The position numbers were made by a program, and so were the translations under genes. The notes under the pieces are model-generated. The model saw nothing but the letters and a program-made list of their open reading frames with translations, made no database searches and was not told the DNA's origin. This document shows positions 40,208 to 63,000 of a stretch of DNA of 64,000 nt, one piece after another (position 1 is the stretch's first letter; each line of letters starts with the position of its first letter). The DNA is from Xanthostigma xanthostigma (lineage: Eukaryota; Arthropoda; Insecta; Raphidioptera; Raphidiidae): positions 72,762,948 through 72,826,947 of the forward strand of contig OY754464.1 in assembly GCA_963575645.1 (NCBI GenBank). Direction: 5' to 3'.

Positions 40208-41358
40208 TTATATTCCAGTAATGTCTTTCACCCAGGCTCTGAGATGAGCCACGTTGGAATAAACGCCAGGATATCCCGGTTCTGCGCAACCTCTTCCCCA
40301 AGAAACGATGCCAACCAGGATCTTGTCAACCACAAGTGGACCACCTGAGTCACTTTGGCACGCGTCCTTTCCACCTTTGTCGTAACCAGCGCAGATCATA
40401 CTGTAAATGCAAAAAAAAGCAATAATCAATATATAATCAACTATAGAGGCTTGTAAAAATTGTTACCGAATATTTACCGTTCAGTGATTGTACCGTAGGC
40501 CTTGTTACACACTTCTCGGGACACAATAGGTACCTCGACTTGTTGCAAAATGTCGGATGAGGAGCCACCGAATTGTAAATCACCCCAACCGGTAACCATA
40601 GCCAATTTACCGACTGATGCTTCCTTTTCGGCCAGTTTGATAGCGTCGACGGTTTTAGACCCGATTGGGAAAGGCTCTTTTACTTGAACAACGGCAATGT
40701 CGTAGTCAGTAGTGCGGCGGTCGTATTTTGGATGTGCGGTAATGTTCACAGCCTGGTGAATGCTTCCACCGGAATATCGGTGGGCAGATCCTGCGAGGAA
40801 GGTAACGATGGCAGGATTTGTCGGAACACCAGAAAATCTATATGCAACAAAATATTATTTGCTTGCAATTTTCACACGTTGATTATTTATAGATATTTTT
40901 CGATAACTCACCCTACAACGCAATGAGCTGCTGTCACTACCGTGTTTGGTCCAATAATTGAAGCACCGCAATAGTGAGTGCCGCTTTTTCTCAATGAAAG
41001 CTGTAAAATGAAGTTTGATTGCATATCAAATTAAGATGGGTTAAAATTGCACTCTAAATGTCATAATTATAACATACCTGATACGGAAAATCTTCAATTT
41101 TCGCATCTTTTCCACCAACGATACGGCCATCTGGCATCGGTCTTTGAACCAATCCTAAATGATGTTTACATTTTTATTATTAAATTTAAACTAAATAAAC
41201 GTTATTTATTTTTTTCAACATTTGCAAAACCGTTGTCCTTAGGTAATGAATATAGAATAGGTACATTAATATTTAATATATCAAGATTAAAAATATTGTG
41301 AAACCTTACCAGCGAAACAGCAGCTAGTCAACGATACGATTATCAAAAAACGAAACAT
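40208..41358 (-). CDS. T4, trypsin with Ser at position 193
   Basis: The exons, in gene order, are 41358-41310, 41154-41078, 41000-40912, 40837-40478 and 40400-40208, giving 255 aa. The signal peptide is [16 protein letters not shown], the propeptide [11 protein letters not shown], then IVGG. The triad is complete (TAAHC, DYDIAV, Ser210) and the S1 base is Asp204, so Arg/Lys preference is expected. The active-site segment reads [11 protein letters not shown]: Ser replaces the near-invariant Gly193, whose backbone NH builds the oxyanion hole. Non-Gly residues there are known to disturb inhibitor binding (mesotrypsin has Arg), so T4 may tolerate canonical inhibitors. It is head-to-head with T5 (1.6 kb spacer) and near-identical to T6, introns included. 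Confidence 0.94.
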
Positions 41359-41392
41359 TCTGAATGATATAATTTCCTTCTTCTCGTGGAGT

Positions 41393-41399
41393 TTTTATA
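41393..41399 (-). promoter_or_regulatory. TATA box of T4
   Basis: On the minus strand TATAAAA lies 35-41 bases before the T4 ATG and is followed by CTCCACGAGAAG, as in the other trypsin promoters. Confidence 0.75.
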
Positions 41400-58423: not shown

Positions 58424-60024
58424 TTTGAAGTACACATTTAAATTTAGTTCAATGCTTTTTTATAGTTGAATTTTTTATTGTCGAATAAAAGCTGAGATAG
58501 AAATGTGCTATTTTAATGTTGTTATCAAAAGATAAAACATTAAATAATATGATATACATCTATTTCTTTCTATGTGGCCACACTTTTTAATTGTTCTTTT
58601 AAAATTAAAGTGATCAAAAGTCAAGAGGAAAAACGAGGTCGTCCCACTTTTTTTTTTTTAATTACATTACAATTTATTATTAATAGATTACGAAAAAAAA
58701 ATTCGGAAGCTTGCACTATAATAAAAAAAAATTGCAAAAGCATTAATTTTTCGATTGAATTATGCCGCTACTGAAGTGGCGTAAACAATATTAAGCCTGT
58801 GATTGGTAGACTGAATCTACTGTCACGCCCAGTGATCTGTCAGATTGAAAGTAATCAGCCATGAAAATAATTTATTTACATCTTTTTCAATAGATAAAGA
58901 AGTGTGACTGTCTTCTATATCATAAAGGTGTATTGTGTTTAAAATATACAGGGTGTTTCACAATTGAATGTCAATATTGATTATTATTATTAATAATTAA
59001 TAAATCGCAGGATTGTAGACAAAAATTATATTTGTAAATATAATTTTTGTCCACAATCCTGCGATTTATTAATTATTATCTCGATGGGCACGATATCTAA
59101 TATATATTGATTATTATTGAAGGGGAATAATTAGTGCATGAATTTAAGACAAAAAGTTCAAATAGGTATAGGTCCGATTTTGCTTTATTTTTGAATATAC
59201 AGAAATAACACCGATCTACATTAGAATGTGTATTAAACTTAGTGGGTGTAAAATAGGTGTTGGCACATAATTATTTAATAAAAATAAATATTGACATTCT
59301 ATTATGAAACATTCTGTATATAAAGTTGGTTAACGTTATTTGTTTATGCTTGATGAATAACATACACTATTCGAAATTATAAAACTTTGATATGTTGATA
59401 GGGTTACCAGGCTCTAAAATACAAAAGCCGGACTCAGCGCTGTATTAGGCCGGACATTTTTGCCCTAAAAGCCGGACGTATCTTTTTTAAAAATCAAACA
59501 TACCTTTTTAAAGCCGTACATACGTCTTGAAAGCCGGATATCACATTTACAATATATAAAACTCTGCTAGGTTCGTATTAAAGTTGTTTATTAATAATTA
59601 TTTTATAGTGAATCACAGTTTTGTTACAAAATTAATAACATTCAACAAACAGTCCTACCTGCCTGTCATCATTTTTATTTATACCTATGATATATTGATG
59701 AACTGAAAAATGTTCTTCTGTAGACTATTAGTAGATTAATTAAAAAAAAAAACACAAACACACAATCAAACAAACAAATATAGCTCACTTTTAACAAAAT
59801 ACAAAAATCTAAAAGTTTTCGTTAACCAAATAAAAAATATTTCTTTTGGATAAAAACAAAAAGTTCTTTATTAAAAAATAATAATTTCAAAGAAAAATAT
59901 CAGAAAGTCTATAATTAATAGGTACTCTTCTTTTTTCGCAGTCGAATAAAAAGAAGACAAGATACATTAAATGAAAAATCAAAGTACATTATTCGTTTGT
60001 GTTTACATTATATCGATAAACTTG
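58424..60024. other. Gap between T8 and T9, one perfect hairpin
   Basis: No gene is seen. A long perfect palindrome lies at about 58990-59078 (AATAAATCGCAGGATTGT and complement around ATTATATTTGTAAATATAAT). Near 59399 TAGGGTTACCAGGCTCTAAA, followed by repeated AAAGCCGGAC words, looks like the left end of a hAT-type element, but the right end was not found. Confidence 0.5.
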
Positions 60025-63000
60025 TTATATTCCAGTCGTCTGTTTGATCCAACCTCTGAGGCTAACAACACTCGAGAAGACCCAAGGATATTTTGGATAA
60101 CCGCAACCAAATCCCCAGGAGACAGCACCGATCAGTTGTTTGTTGGCGACGAGTGGACCGCCTGAGTCGTTTTGGCAAGGACTCTTGCCTCCTTCATAAG
60201 AGCCGGCACAAATCATACTGCAATTAAAATTGATTTAATTACATATTTTATAAGGGGTCCAATTTACATGCAAAAAATGTAGTATCTCAAACGAAATTAT
60301 ATTGTTACAATCTCCACGTTGGGACAACAAAGAATGTTGTCTAGCAACAATCGGCTCTCATGCTAACAATTATACACAGACCGTTATGGATCATTCTAAC
60401 AATGAGACACATATTGTTGTGGGAGACAACAATTGAATTGATTGTTGTTCTAACAATAAGCGTAAGTAAAAAGAGCTTTGTTCCCAAATTCCAGACAACA
60501 ATGAAAGCAACAAAGGAAAGAACGACCCAGTGCCTATATAAACCACGGGATAGCTCACGATCGGAGACAGTCATCATACAGACAGTCACAGAGGGACTGT
60601 CATACACAGAGAGTCACACAGGGACAGTCATGCAGTGTCCCTCATCGAGTGATACATAAATTCGACATAAATTAACAGTCAGTAAACAATGCTGTGGTAA
60701 CTGCTGAAATAAATAGTTTAACATAAATAATCTCCTGTAGATAAATAAGTGTGCGAATGAGCTGTGTAATAGTGTAATAGTGTACGAAATAAATAGAACT
60801 GTATATAGGTAAGTGTGAATAAGTGTCAAAAATAATTTTTGGTGTGTTCCTGTATTGTAAATAGCCTTGTGTACCTATATAGTTGTATAGTGACTTTGTA
60901 TTCTTCTATTTTATTATTTAGAACTGTCGTTTTGTTTCTGTTACGTTATAAAGAAGTGCTTTCTGTTTATTTGTTTAACTGTTTTGTCAATGTTTTATTA
61001 TTACTGTAAATAAATAATATCCACCACGAACTAGAACAGTTTTGTTACAATATTATGACTCGTGTGACTGTTAACACTCGCTGCCCTTCGTATCACTTGC
61101 TTGTATAATACCATTATTTTCGTTCTAGATACATAAGCTATACTATTTTGTTATTATTTTTGTGGTTTGTGTAATGTTTCCATAACATTATAGATGTTCA
61201 TGTCTTTATGGTTTTTAGTTTGAAATTTTTTTCATACACATTTTTTTATGCTTAATACTTTTTTATTTTTTTTTAAATCGAACTCGTGTGAAATATCACA
61301 TGCGCATTACTCACTCACTGATGCGCTAATTGTCGGCAGGGTTTCGAACTGCGACCGTAGTTTTTTAATTTTAAGAATAAGCTGTTCTCATACTGCAAAA
61401 ATTAAATAATATCGAGTTGCACACAAAATTATTTTTTACTTTTTAGTCCACATTGCTATAATACCTAAGTGTTTTTTTTTTGAGTTTTATTAAATCTAAT
61501 TTTATTGATGTGTAAATCAACTATAGTTTCCTAATTTTATCAAAGCGTAATAATTTTTTGTACAAAAATATAAAAAATATTACCTATCGGTGACTCCACC
61601 ACTGTAGGGTATGTTACACAACTCGTTGTCTACAATTGGTACATCGACTTGTTGAAGAGTTATTGGCAAGGTGTCTCCACCATATTTCAAGCGACCCCAA
61701 CCGCTAACGACGGCTTTTGTTCCAGCTGTTGCCTGTTTATCGGCCAATTTGACGACGTCGACAGTCTTCGAGCCAATTTCGAATGCTTTCTGGACGTAGA
61801 CGAGGGCCATATCATAATCCAAAGTGAAAGGATTCCACCCTGAAGGAACTGTGATGTTGATGGCATCGTGAATGGTACCTCCAGAAATACGACTGTTGGA
61901 GCCTGCGCGGAATGAAATTCTTGATGCCTGTACACTGTAATTTTTTTTATCATATAATTCTCAAGGTTAATGGTTACAGAGGCTGCCTCGTTCCGTTGAA
62001 AAGTAGAGGGGGGATCACGCCATCCCGCGGCCCTGTCAATTGAATGCGTGGCGAAGGCCGGTGTAGTGGCAGTATTTAACAAAATATGTCAAAGAAATTA
62101 AAAGAAAATATTGATATTATTTACAATAAATACAATTTTTAAGTTAAAAGATTTACATAATTTCAGTTACATAAATATAATAGACATTTTTGATGTCGTT
62201 GTAGGTTGGTAAAAATATGAAAGGTGCGCCAGTCATTTATAAAATTAACTTGCATCAAACTATTAAAAATTCGTGTCTCAGTGTCAAACTATGCCAACAA
62301 AATGGTGTATTAATGTTCATTCGTTATGGATTTATTCTTAATATATAATTTAAAATGATTACATTTTTCTAAATCTATTTACACCAAATTTTATATTATA
62401 CCCTTCGGTAATTCTCTAAATGATGATAAAAAGAGAATCAAAATCTCTTGTGTATTTTAGAACTAGTGGTCCAGTCCAGTTTCAGGCGGGTGCAAAAGAA
62501 CGAATGGGAAAGGGAGAGACATGAGTACGCACATTCATCTAGTTTATCGAGATGAATGTTGTGTCCAAATGTCATGATGATCGAAGTTACCGTTCAACAG
62601 TGTTTGTCGATAAAAAGCAGTATTTATACTTTTTTTAAGTGATAAATTTCTTTGAAAACAATAATTACTGTAATTAATAAAATATAATAAATATTTAAAT
62701 ACAGTTTTCAAATGAGCTATTAATTAGATTTATTTAATTTTAATTAGTCGTAAATAAAATTAAAATAAATTTAAAAATAAAACAAAATAAAAATATAATC
62801 GCTCCACGTGGGGCTCGAACCCACGACCCTGATTTAACAGTCGCATGCTCTACCGACTGACCTAGCCGGGCTTGTGAATGTACGACCTAATATTGATATA
62901 TGTAGTTAGAGCATTTCACCTGAATAGAAGCTATTTTTGAGATACATTTTGCAACATTTTTCATTGATGCTCCGTTCCTATTGGTCGTAGCGTGATATTA

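Follow-up and report, generated by a model that had tools for sequence, protein, structure and literature searches.

The window analyzed here is a 64,000-nucleotide stretch of the genome of Xanthostigma xanthostigma (C1:72762948-72826947; the genome comprises 623 Mb in 28 contigs), and gene modeling over the window and 80 kb of flanking DNA revealed a cluster of 11 trypsin-family genes, T1 to T11, nine of which lie in the window and two of which, T10 and T11, lie beyond its edge. The genome contains 78 matches to 7tm_6, an insect-specific odorant-receptor family that registers in 0 of 14 control genomes, as expected of an insect. Residues are given in chymotrypsinogen numbering. The backbone NH of Gly193 forms the oxyanion hole, which is standard knowledge for these enzymes, and Asp189 sets trypsin specificity. 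The substance of the present analysis is that residue 193 has changed repeatedly within this one cluster, in two lineages together with the loss of Asp189, and in genes that are open. The genes and duplicated blocks are as follows, in window positions.

19589..20962, plus strand: T1, trypsin gene, 5 exons, 255 amino acids, Gly193, Asp189
28204..29577, plus strand: T2, trypsin gene, 5 exons, 255 amino acids, Gly193, Asp189
35697..37139, plus strand: T3, trypsin gene, 5 exons, 255 amino acids, Gly193, Asp189
40208..41358, minus strand: T4, trypsin gene, 5 exons, 255 amino acids, Ser193, Asp189
42924..44093, plus strand: T5, trypsin gene, head-to-head with T4, Gly193, Asp189, exon 5 like that of T1 to T3
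48241..49402, minus strand: T6, trypsin gene, block copy of T4, Ser193, Asp189
51024..52212, plus strand: T7, trypsin gene, block partner of T6, Gly193, Asp189
53352..58423, minus strand: T8, trypsin-like gene, 5 exons, 257 amino acids, Glu193, Gly189 (GGT, 53508-53510)
60025..63479, minus strand: T9, trypsin-like gene, exons 2 to 5, Asn193, Ser189, Trp226
64754-64802, minus strand: T9 exon 1, outside the window
74191-71158, minus strand: T10, outside the window, Asn193, Gly189
87054-80326, minus strand: T11, outside the window, Gly193, Asp189
39915..44095: duplicated block A (T4 and T5), about 90 to 91.5% identical to 47977-52214
47977..52214: duplicated block A' (T6 and T7), copy of block A
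59104..64000: part of duplicated block B (T9), with the T10 copy outside the window at about 70383-75392

Each of the 11 models has five exons with GT/AG introns, an open frame, and one terminal stop, with no premature stop or frameshift in any of them, and the genes were rejected as pseudogenes since all 11 are open and normally spliced. The first exon is hydrophobic in the cluster genes; the activation site Arg15-Ile16, as Arg-Ile-(Val/Ile)-Gly-Gly, is present in all 11, and His57, Asp102, Ser195, Asp194, and six cysteines are kept throughout (11/11). A TATAAAA motif lies 5' of the ATG in 10 of the 11 genes, T7 having AATAAAA at the same place, and AATAAA or ATTAAA follows within 200 bases of the stop in all of them. 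The four proteins searched with PF00089 scored 212.5 (T4), 192.6 (T8), 190.5 (T9), and 219.4 (T11) bits, with a cutoff of 20.6. By PF00089, the catalytic triad, and the activation site, the cluster genes are S1A (trypsin fold) peptidases; classification as serine protease homologs (SPHs) through loss of the triad was rejected, the triad being present in 11 of 11. The cluster is made up of 11 secreted S1A (trypsin-family) zymogens and has grown by tandem and block duplication. An inverted pair of about 620 bases, 98% identical, occupies window positions 31582-33166, and several dispersed intergenic repeats are also present; these may be mobile elements that aided the duplications.

Replacement of Gly193 and loss of Asp189

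A motif scan of the window returned QGDSGG at five plus-strand sites and QSDSGG (twice), QEDSGG, and QNDSGG at four minus-strand sites, and the readings in the first-pass annotation, namely, Gly193 in all five plus-strand genes and Ser, Ser, Glu, and Asn in the four minus-strand genes, are exact. Codon 193 is GGT in T1 (20816-20818), T2 (29431-29433), T3 (36993-36995), T5 (43947-43949), and T7 (52066-52068), all on the plus strand. On the minus strand, it is AGT (Ser) in T4 (40352-40354) and T6 (48385-48387), GAA (Glu) in T8 (53496-53498), and AAC (Asn) in T9 (60169-60171). The Ser of T4 aligns opposite the Gly of CQGDSGG in three alignments with solved trypsin-like proteins. Outside the window, T10 carries Asn193 and T11 carries Gly193, both on the minus strand.

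In a nucleotide tree built without codons 189 and 193, T9 and T10 join T11 (100/100) and T8 joins T1 to T7 (100/100); the protein tree leaves T11 open between T9/T10 and T1 to T8, and it is the nucleotide tree that places it. A single clade of the five non-Gly193 genes was rejected (approximately unbiased test, p-AU 1.5e-7), which bears out the earlier suggestion that Ser, Glu, and Asn are three separate replacements. The five changed genes make up about three events because T4/T6 and T9/T10 are block copies: Ser193 arose before the T4/T6 split, Glu193 in T8, and Asn193 before the T9/T10 split.

Residue 189 is Asp in T1 to T7 and T11, Gly in T8, Ser in T9, and Gly in T10. The combination of Asp189, Gly216, and Gly226 that denotes trypsin specificity is found in 8 of the 11 genes (T1 to T7 and T11) and is absent from T8, T9, and T10, with Trp at 226 in T9; because Asp189 is lost, these three are not expected to be trypsins. 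The loss occurred in two lineages, T8 and T9/T10, both of which are also changed at 193. A single clade of T8, T9, and T10, with one shared loss of Asp189, was rejected (p-AU 4e-4), T8 being a long branch, and a common origin of Gly189 in T8 and T10 was rejected on the same grounds. Recent exon conversion between T8 and T10 is also unlikely, as five same-residue codons among 188 to 197 differ silently. Among 19 exon 5 columns that are at least 85% conserved outside the cluster, 15 are unchanged within it, positions 189 and 193 have changed three times each, and two C-terminal columns have changed twice and once, so that change is concentrated at 189 and 193 relative to the remaining conserved columns (Fisher p 0.014).

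T9 has Pro at 190 against Ser in T10, and likewise Phe against Leu at 217, Gly against Ala at 221, Trp against Gly at 226, and Phe against Tyr at 228. In exon 5 (60025-60217 in T9), the two genes show seven amino acid differences, at 184a, 189, 190, 217, 221, 226, and 228, all at or near the S1 site, and no synonymous difference. The clustering of T9 changes near S1 (hypergeometric p 0.022 or 0.004) is only suggestive, the two definitions having sizes set by hand after the data had been seen.

Across the genome, 150 of 375 candidates were scored, a candidate being taken only if its listed range covered the catalytic-serine stretch. L007, which is the same place as L021, was dropped, and column 193 was missing from one exon piece; at 14 loci residue 193 could not be read, with the sequence in 10 cases ending at Cys191-Gln192, and L042 and L023, which read Gly193 by pattern, are in neither the tree nor the 61 exons counted outside the cluster. 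Residue 193 differs from Gly in 8 of 72 readable S1 exons; five of these are among the 11 of the cluster and three among the 61 elsewhere (Fisher p 0.0015). Three of six events at 193 fall on the cluster's 5.1% of the tree length (p 0.0023, post hoc), and counting Ser and Glu as a single event, which the exon 5 tree allows, gives two of five (p 0.023, post hoc); by either count, change at 193 is more frequent in the cluster than among the remaining S1 genes that were read.

The three non-Gly193 loci outside the cluster are L059 with Leu (C1:7604040), L019 with Ala (C5:46639322), and L083 with Ala (C1:25650327). L059 shares its chromosome with the cluster and is on the plus strand, with exon 5 at C1:7.604 Mb, and has Asp189, Asn192, and Leu193; about 2.3 kb upstream of exon 5 there is a matching open exon 4, and the first exons of L059 were not found within the DNA fetched around the locus. 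L017 (C1:80227367), also outside the cluster, has GDTGSP for GDSGGP and TAARC for TAAHC and is likely an inactive homolog. In addition, 16 loci on IMG/VR viral contigs (L093-L108) contain trypsin-like segments that are 56 to 64% identical to T11 exon 5; QGDSGG occurs in 16 of 16, a biased tally in that one search pattern itself held Gly193.

Strand, duplicated blocks, and constraint

All four minus-strand genes and none of the five plus-strand genes in the window are changed at 193, and the first-pass annotation had proposed a link with strand, possibly through one ancestral minus-strand lineage. Counted naively, the association gives Fisher p 0.008 with the nine window genes and 0.015 with the whole 11-gene cluster, and in the nucleotide tree the minus-strand genes all lie on the same side of a split (76/82). 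That residue 193 follows strand, or was inherited in changed form from one ancestral minus-strand lineage, is nevertheless highly improbable: T11, the sister of T9/T10 (100/100), lies on the minus strand and keeps Gly193, the non-Gly193 genes do not form one clade, L059 has Leu193 on the plus strand, and, with duplicated blocks counted once, three of four minus-strand lineages and none of two plus-strand lineages are non-Gly193 (Fisher p 0.40). Strand as a cause was rejected once T10, T11, and L059 had been read. Most of the strand pattern exists because blocks were copied, and the link is a by-product of duplication and the window edge. The minus-side split may explain gene orientation, which would be ancestral there, and not residue 193, which would have changed later and separately. 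As for the blocks themselves, the T9 and T10 regions correspond in five pieces, four of them at 91 to 94% identity and one at 86%. Exon 5 of T5 (43902-44090) is closest to T1 to T3, with a synonymous divergence (dS) of 0.12 to 0.15, and exons 2 to 4 of T5 are nearer T7 (dS 0.24) than T1 to T3 (0.30 to 0.42), which suggests gene conversion or recombination at exon 5.

Constraint was assessed with a codon branch model on a hand-typed topology, in which forks that are open in the nucleotide tree were entered as resolved. The one-ratio estimate of the nonsynonymous-to-synonymous ratio (omega) was 0.34. For T8, omega was 0.10 (0.108 in the separate-class model), and omega = 1 was rejected with twice the log-likelihood difference (2dlnL) at 66. 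The T9/T10 stem, at 1.23, exceeded the background (2dlnL 9.5) and was not distinguishable from 1 (0.84 with separate classes), and neither T11 (0.875; 0.68 with separate classes) nor the T9 tip (2.0; 2.0 for the T9 and T10 tips jointly with separate classes) differed significantly from 1. The T10 tip estimate of 12.2 comes from too few changes, and the T4/T6 stem, at 0.41, is too short a branch; the NG86 omega for T4 versus T6 was 0.22. In neutral simulations, the frame was left without a stop in 1.4% of 800 runs for the T9/T10 stem, 0.13% of 800 for T11, and 0 of 200 for T8, and therefore coding constraint acted on T8 and on the T9/T10 stem during the changes at residues 189 and 193; for the T9 tip, the proportion was 61%, which gives no information on constraint.

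Between T9 and T10, 15 codon differences are nonsynonymous and 3 synonymous, with a nonsynonymous divergence (dN) of 0.034. Their noncoding divergence is 4 to 15%, depending on the part (upstream, downstream, and introns), with 10% for introns overall and 4 to 8% for better-aligned parts. Positive selection on T9 is not claimed from the ratio of 15 to 3, as noncoding divergence exceeds dS and omega is not significantly above 1.

Proposed remodeling of the cleft and competing explanations

We lean modestly toward the explanation that the substrate- and inhibitor-binding cleft was rebuilt in several copies at two otherwise highly conserved positions, 189 and 193. Activity, specificity, and inhibitor response are here predicted from sequence, and on this basis the substrates or the inhibitors of several copies have probably changed. 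Position 193, with its oxyanion-hole backbone NH, adjoins the primed side, and the T8 and T9/T10 lineages independently lost Asp189, which lies at the bottom of the S1 pocket. In T4/T6, Ser193 would place a small side chain by the oxyanion hole of an otherwise normal trypsin, and these enzymes are predicted to remain trypsins with a modest shift in rate and in primed-side and inhibitor contacts. T8 and T10 are predicted to be active, or partly so, and to prefer a non-basic P1 residue, the negative S1 base being gone, with Glu (T8) or Asn (T10) expected beside the primed side. T9 is predicted to be restricted or inactive, as Trp226 would block the pocket. With triads intact, the residues at 193/189 run Gly/Asp, Ser/Asp, Glu/Gly, Asn/Gly, and Asn/Ser plus Trp226; that this graded natural series represents a repeated, parallel rebuilding of both positions under selection, whether for evading or digesting inhibitors in the diet or for acquiring new substrates, seems unlikely.

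Relaxed constraint after duplication, under which redundant copies would drift at 189 and 193, lose activity, and in some cases approach inactive homologs or pseudogenes, with T9 first, is a possible but less probable explanation than remodeling. It draws on the omega values near 1 of the T9/T10 stem and T11, on a noncoding divergence between T9 and T10 that is above both dS and dN, and on the polarization of their 15 differences by T11, which makes 8 derived in T9 (including Trp226) and 1 in T10 and leaves 6 undecided; human KLK10, with Ser193, has also been reported to be inactive on synthetic substrates (PMC2967472). Drift is hard to reconcile with the low omega of T8, the 15 of 19 conserved exon 5 columns left untouched, the absence of stops and frameshifts from all 11 models, and the neutral-run value of 0.014 for the T9/T10 stem. 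Several results nevertheless weigh against cleft remodeling. The stems on which Gly193 was lost have a pooled omega of 0.25 versus 0.38 elsewhere, which is not a significant difference (2dlnL 3.1). The T9/T10 branch may be relaxed, its omega being inseparable from 1, and T11 is also fast evolving despite having Gly193 and Asp189. The T9/T10 dN is not above neutral because noncoding divergence is higher, and relaxation is enough for T9. Support for pairing T4 with T6 is only 63/44 at the nucleotide level, against 97/92 for proteins, although block copying also backs the pair, and a tree of exon 5 alone joins T4, T6, and T8 (85/34), so that Ser and Glu would be one loss of Gly. Lastly, the rate tests were made post hoc and use a tree of 59 columns in which many forks are open. 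Taken together, the evidence favors cleft remodeling over decay, at least for T8, while T9/T10 may be relaxed.

Adaptation to dietary inhibitors in the manner of mesotrypsin, in which a non-Gly residue at 193 would weaken the binding of canonical inhibitors and allow their cleavage, is quite unlikely as the explanation. The analogy, drawn in the first-pass annotation, is weak: T8 to T10 have lost Asp189, and the Ser of T4/T6 is not a bulky Arg or Phe. Residue 193 did change about three times in one cluster; mesotrypsin, with Arg193, is reported to cleave most natural inhibitors, and Gly193Arg confers resistance on trypsin-1 (PMC8609519); TSV-PA has Phe193, and a bulky residue there may reduce sensitivity to bovine pancreatic trypsin inhibitor (BPTI) (PMC3123349); and inhibitor-insensitive proteases may serve insects (PMC3432080). 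However, among the changed genes, only T4/T6 keep Asp189, with a small Ser, and the loss of Asp189 in T8 to T10 would by itself alter the inhibitor spectrum. None of the changed genes combines a bulky residue 193 with Asp189, as a mesotrypsin-type enzyme would: T4/T6 have Ser with Asp, and T8 (Glu) and T9/T10 (Asn) are without Asp189. A mesotrypsin-like role would fit T4/T6 at most, Ser being a mild change.

Comparison with known proteases

Gly193 is regarded as nearly invariant. GDSGG(P) is taken to mark an active serine protease, as in a study of Plutella xylostella (PMC4676143). In that study, trypsin paralogs are grouped on scaffolds, which was attributed to duplication, and sequences with TAAHC, DIAL, and GDSGGP are classed as proteases and the rest as homologs; the number 193 is absent from the main text of the paper. 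The GDSGGP element would file T4, T6, T8, T9, and T10 as noncatalytic homologs, and, taken to the letter, the rule finds DIAL in 0 of the 11 cluster genes. No insect with a changed residue 193 was found in the literature as judged by titles and the beginnings of abstracts. Paralogs with Ser, Glu, or Asn at 193 and intact triads, with T8 strongly constrained, offer a test of how much change the oxyanion hole tolerates and of whether such genes are wrongly filed as inactive. The cluster also supplies matched natural sets (T4 with T5; T8 with T1; T9 and T10 with T11) for the joint effects of 189 and 193 on specificity and inhibitor binding.

Natural variants at position 193 are already known, namely, KLK10 (Ser), mouse KLK13 (Asp), mesotrypsin (Arg), and viper enzymes. 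KLK10 orthologs carry Gly193Ser, the platypus keeping Gly, and the reported inactivity on synthetic substrates comes from one study (PMC2967472). KLK10 resembles T4/T6 in having Gly193Ser with an intact triad in a duplicated trypsin-fold cluster (PMC2967472); unlike in this mammalian kallikrein, the change in T4/T6 is shared through block copying in an insect trypsin cluster. Mouse KLK13, with Gly193Asp, was reported to be active (PMC2967472) and provides a precedent for an acidic residue at 193 such as Glu193 of T8, although T8 differs in also having Gly189. Mesotrypsin (PRSS3, trypsin-3) is, like T4/T6, a trypsin paralog in which Gly193 is replaced (PMC8609519), and T4/T6 keep Asp189; unlike its bulky, charged Arg, T4/T6 have Ser, and T8 to T10 are without Asp189. 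Among viper venom serine proteases, residue 193 is reported as Val, Thr, or Ala in eight family sequences and as Phe in TSV-PA (PMC3123349), so that Gly193 has been replaced repeatedly in one duplicated family, as in this cluster; in this comparison, made at position 193, the viper enzymes differ in residues and setting.

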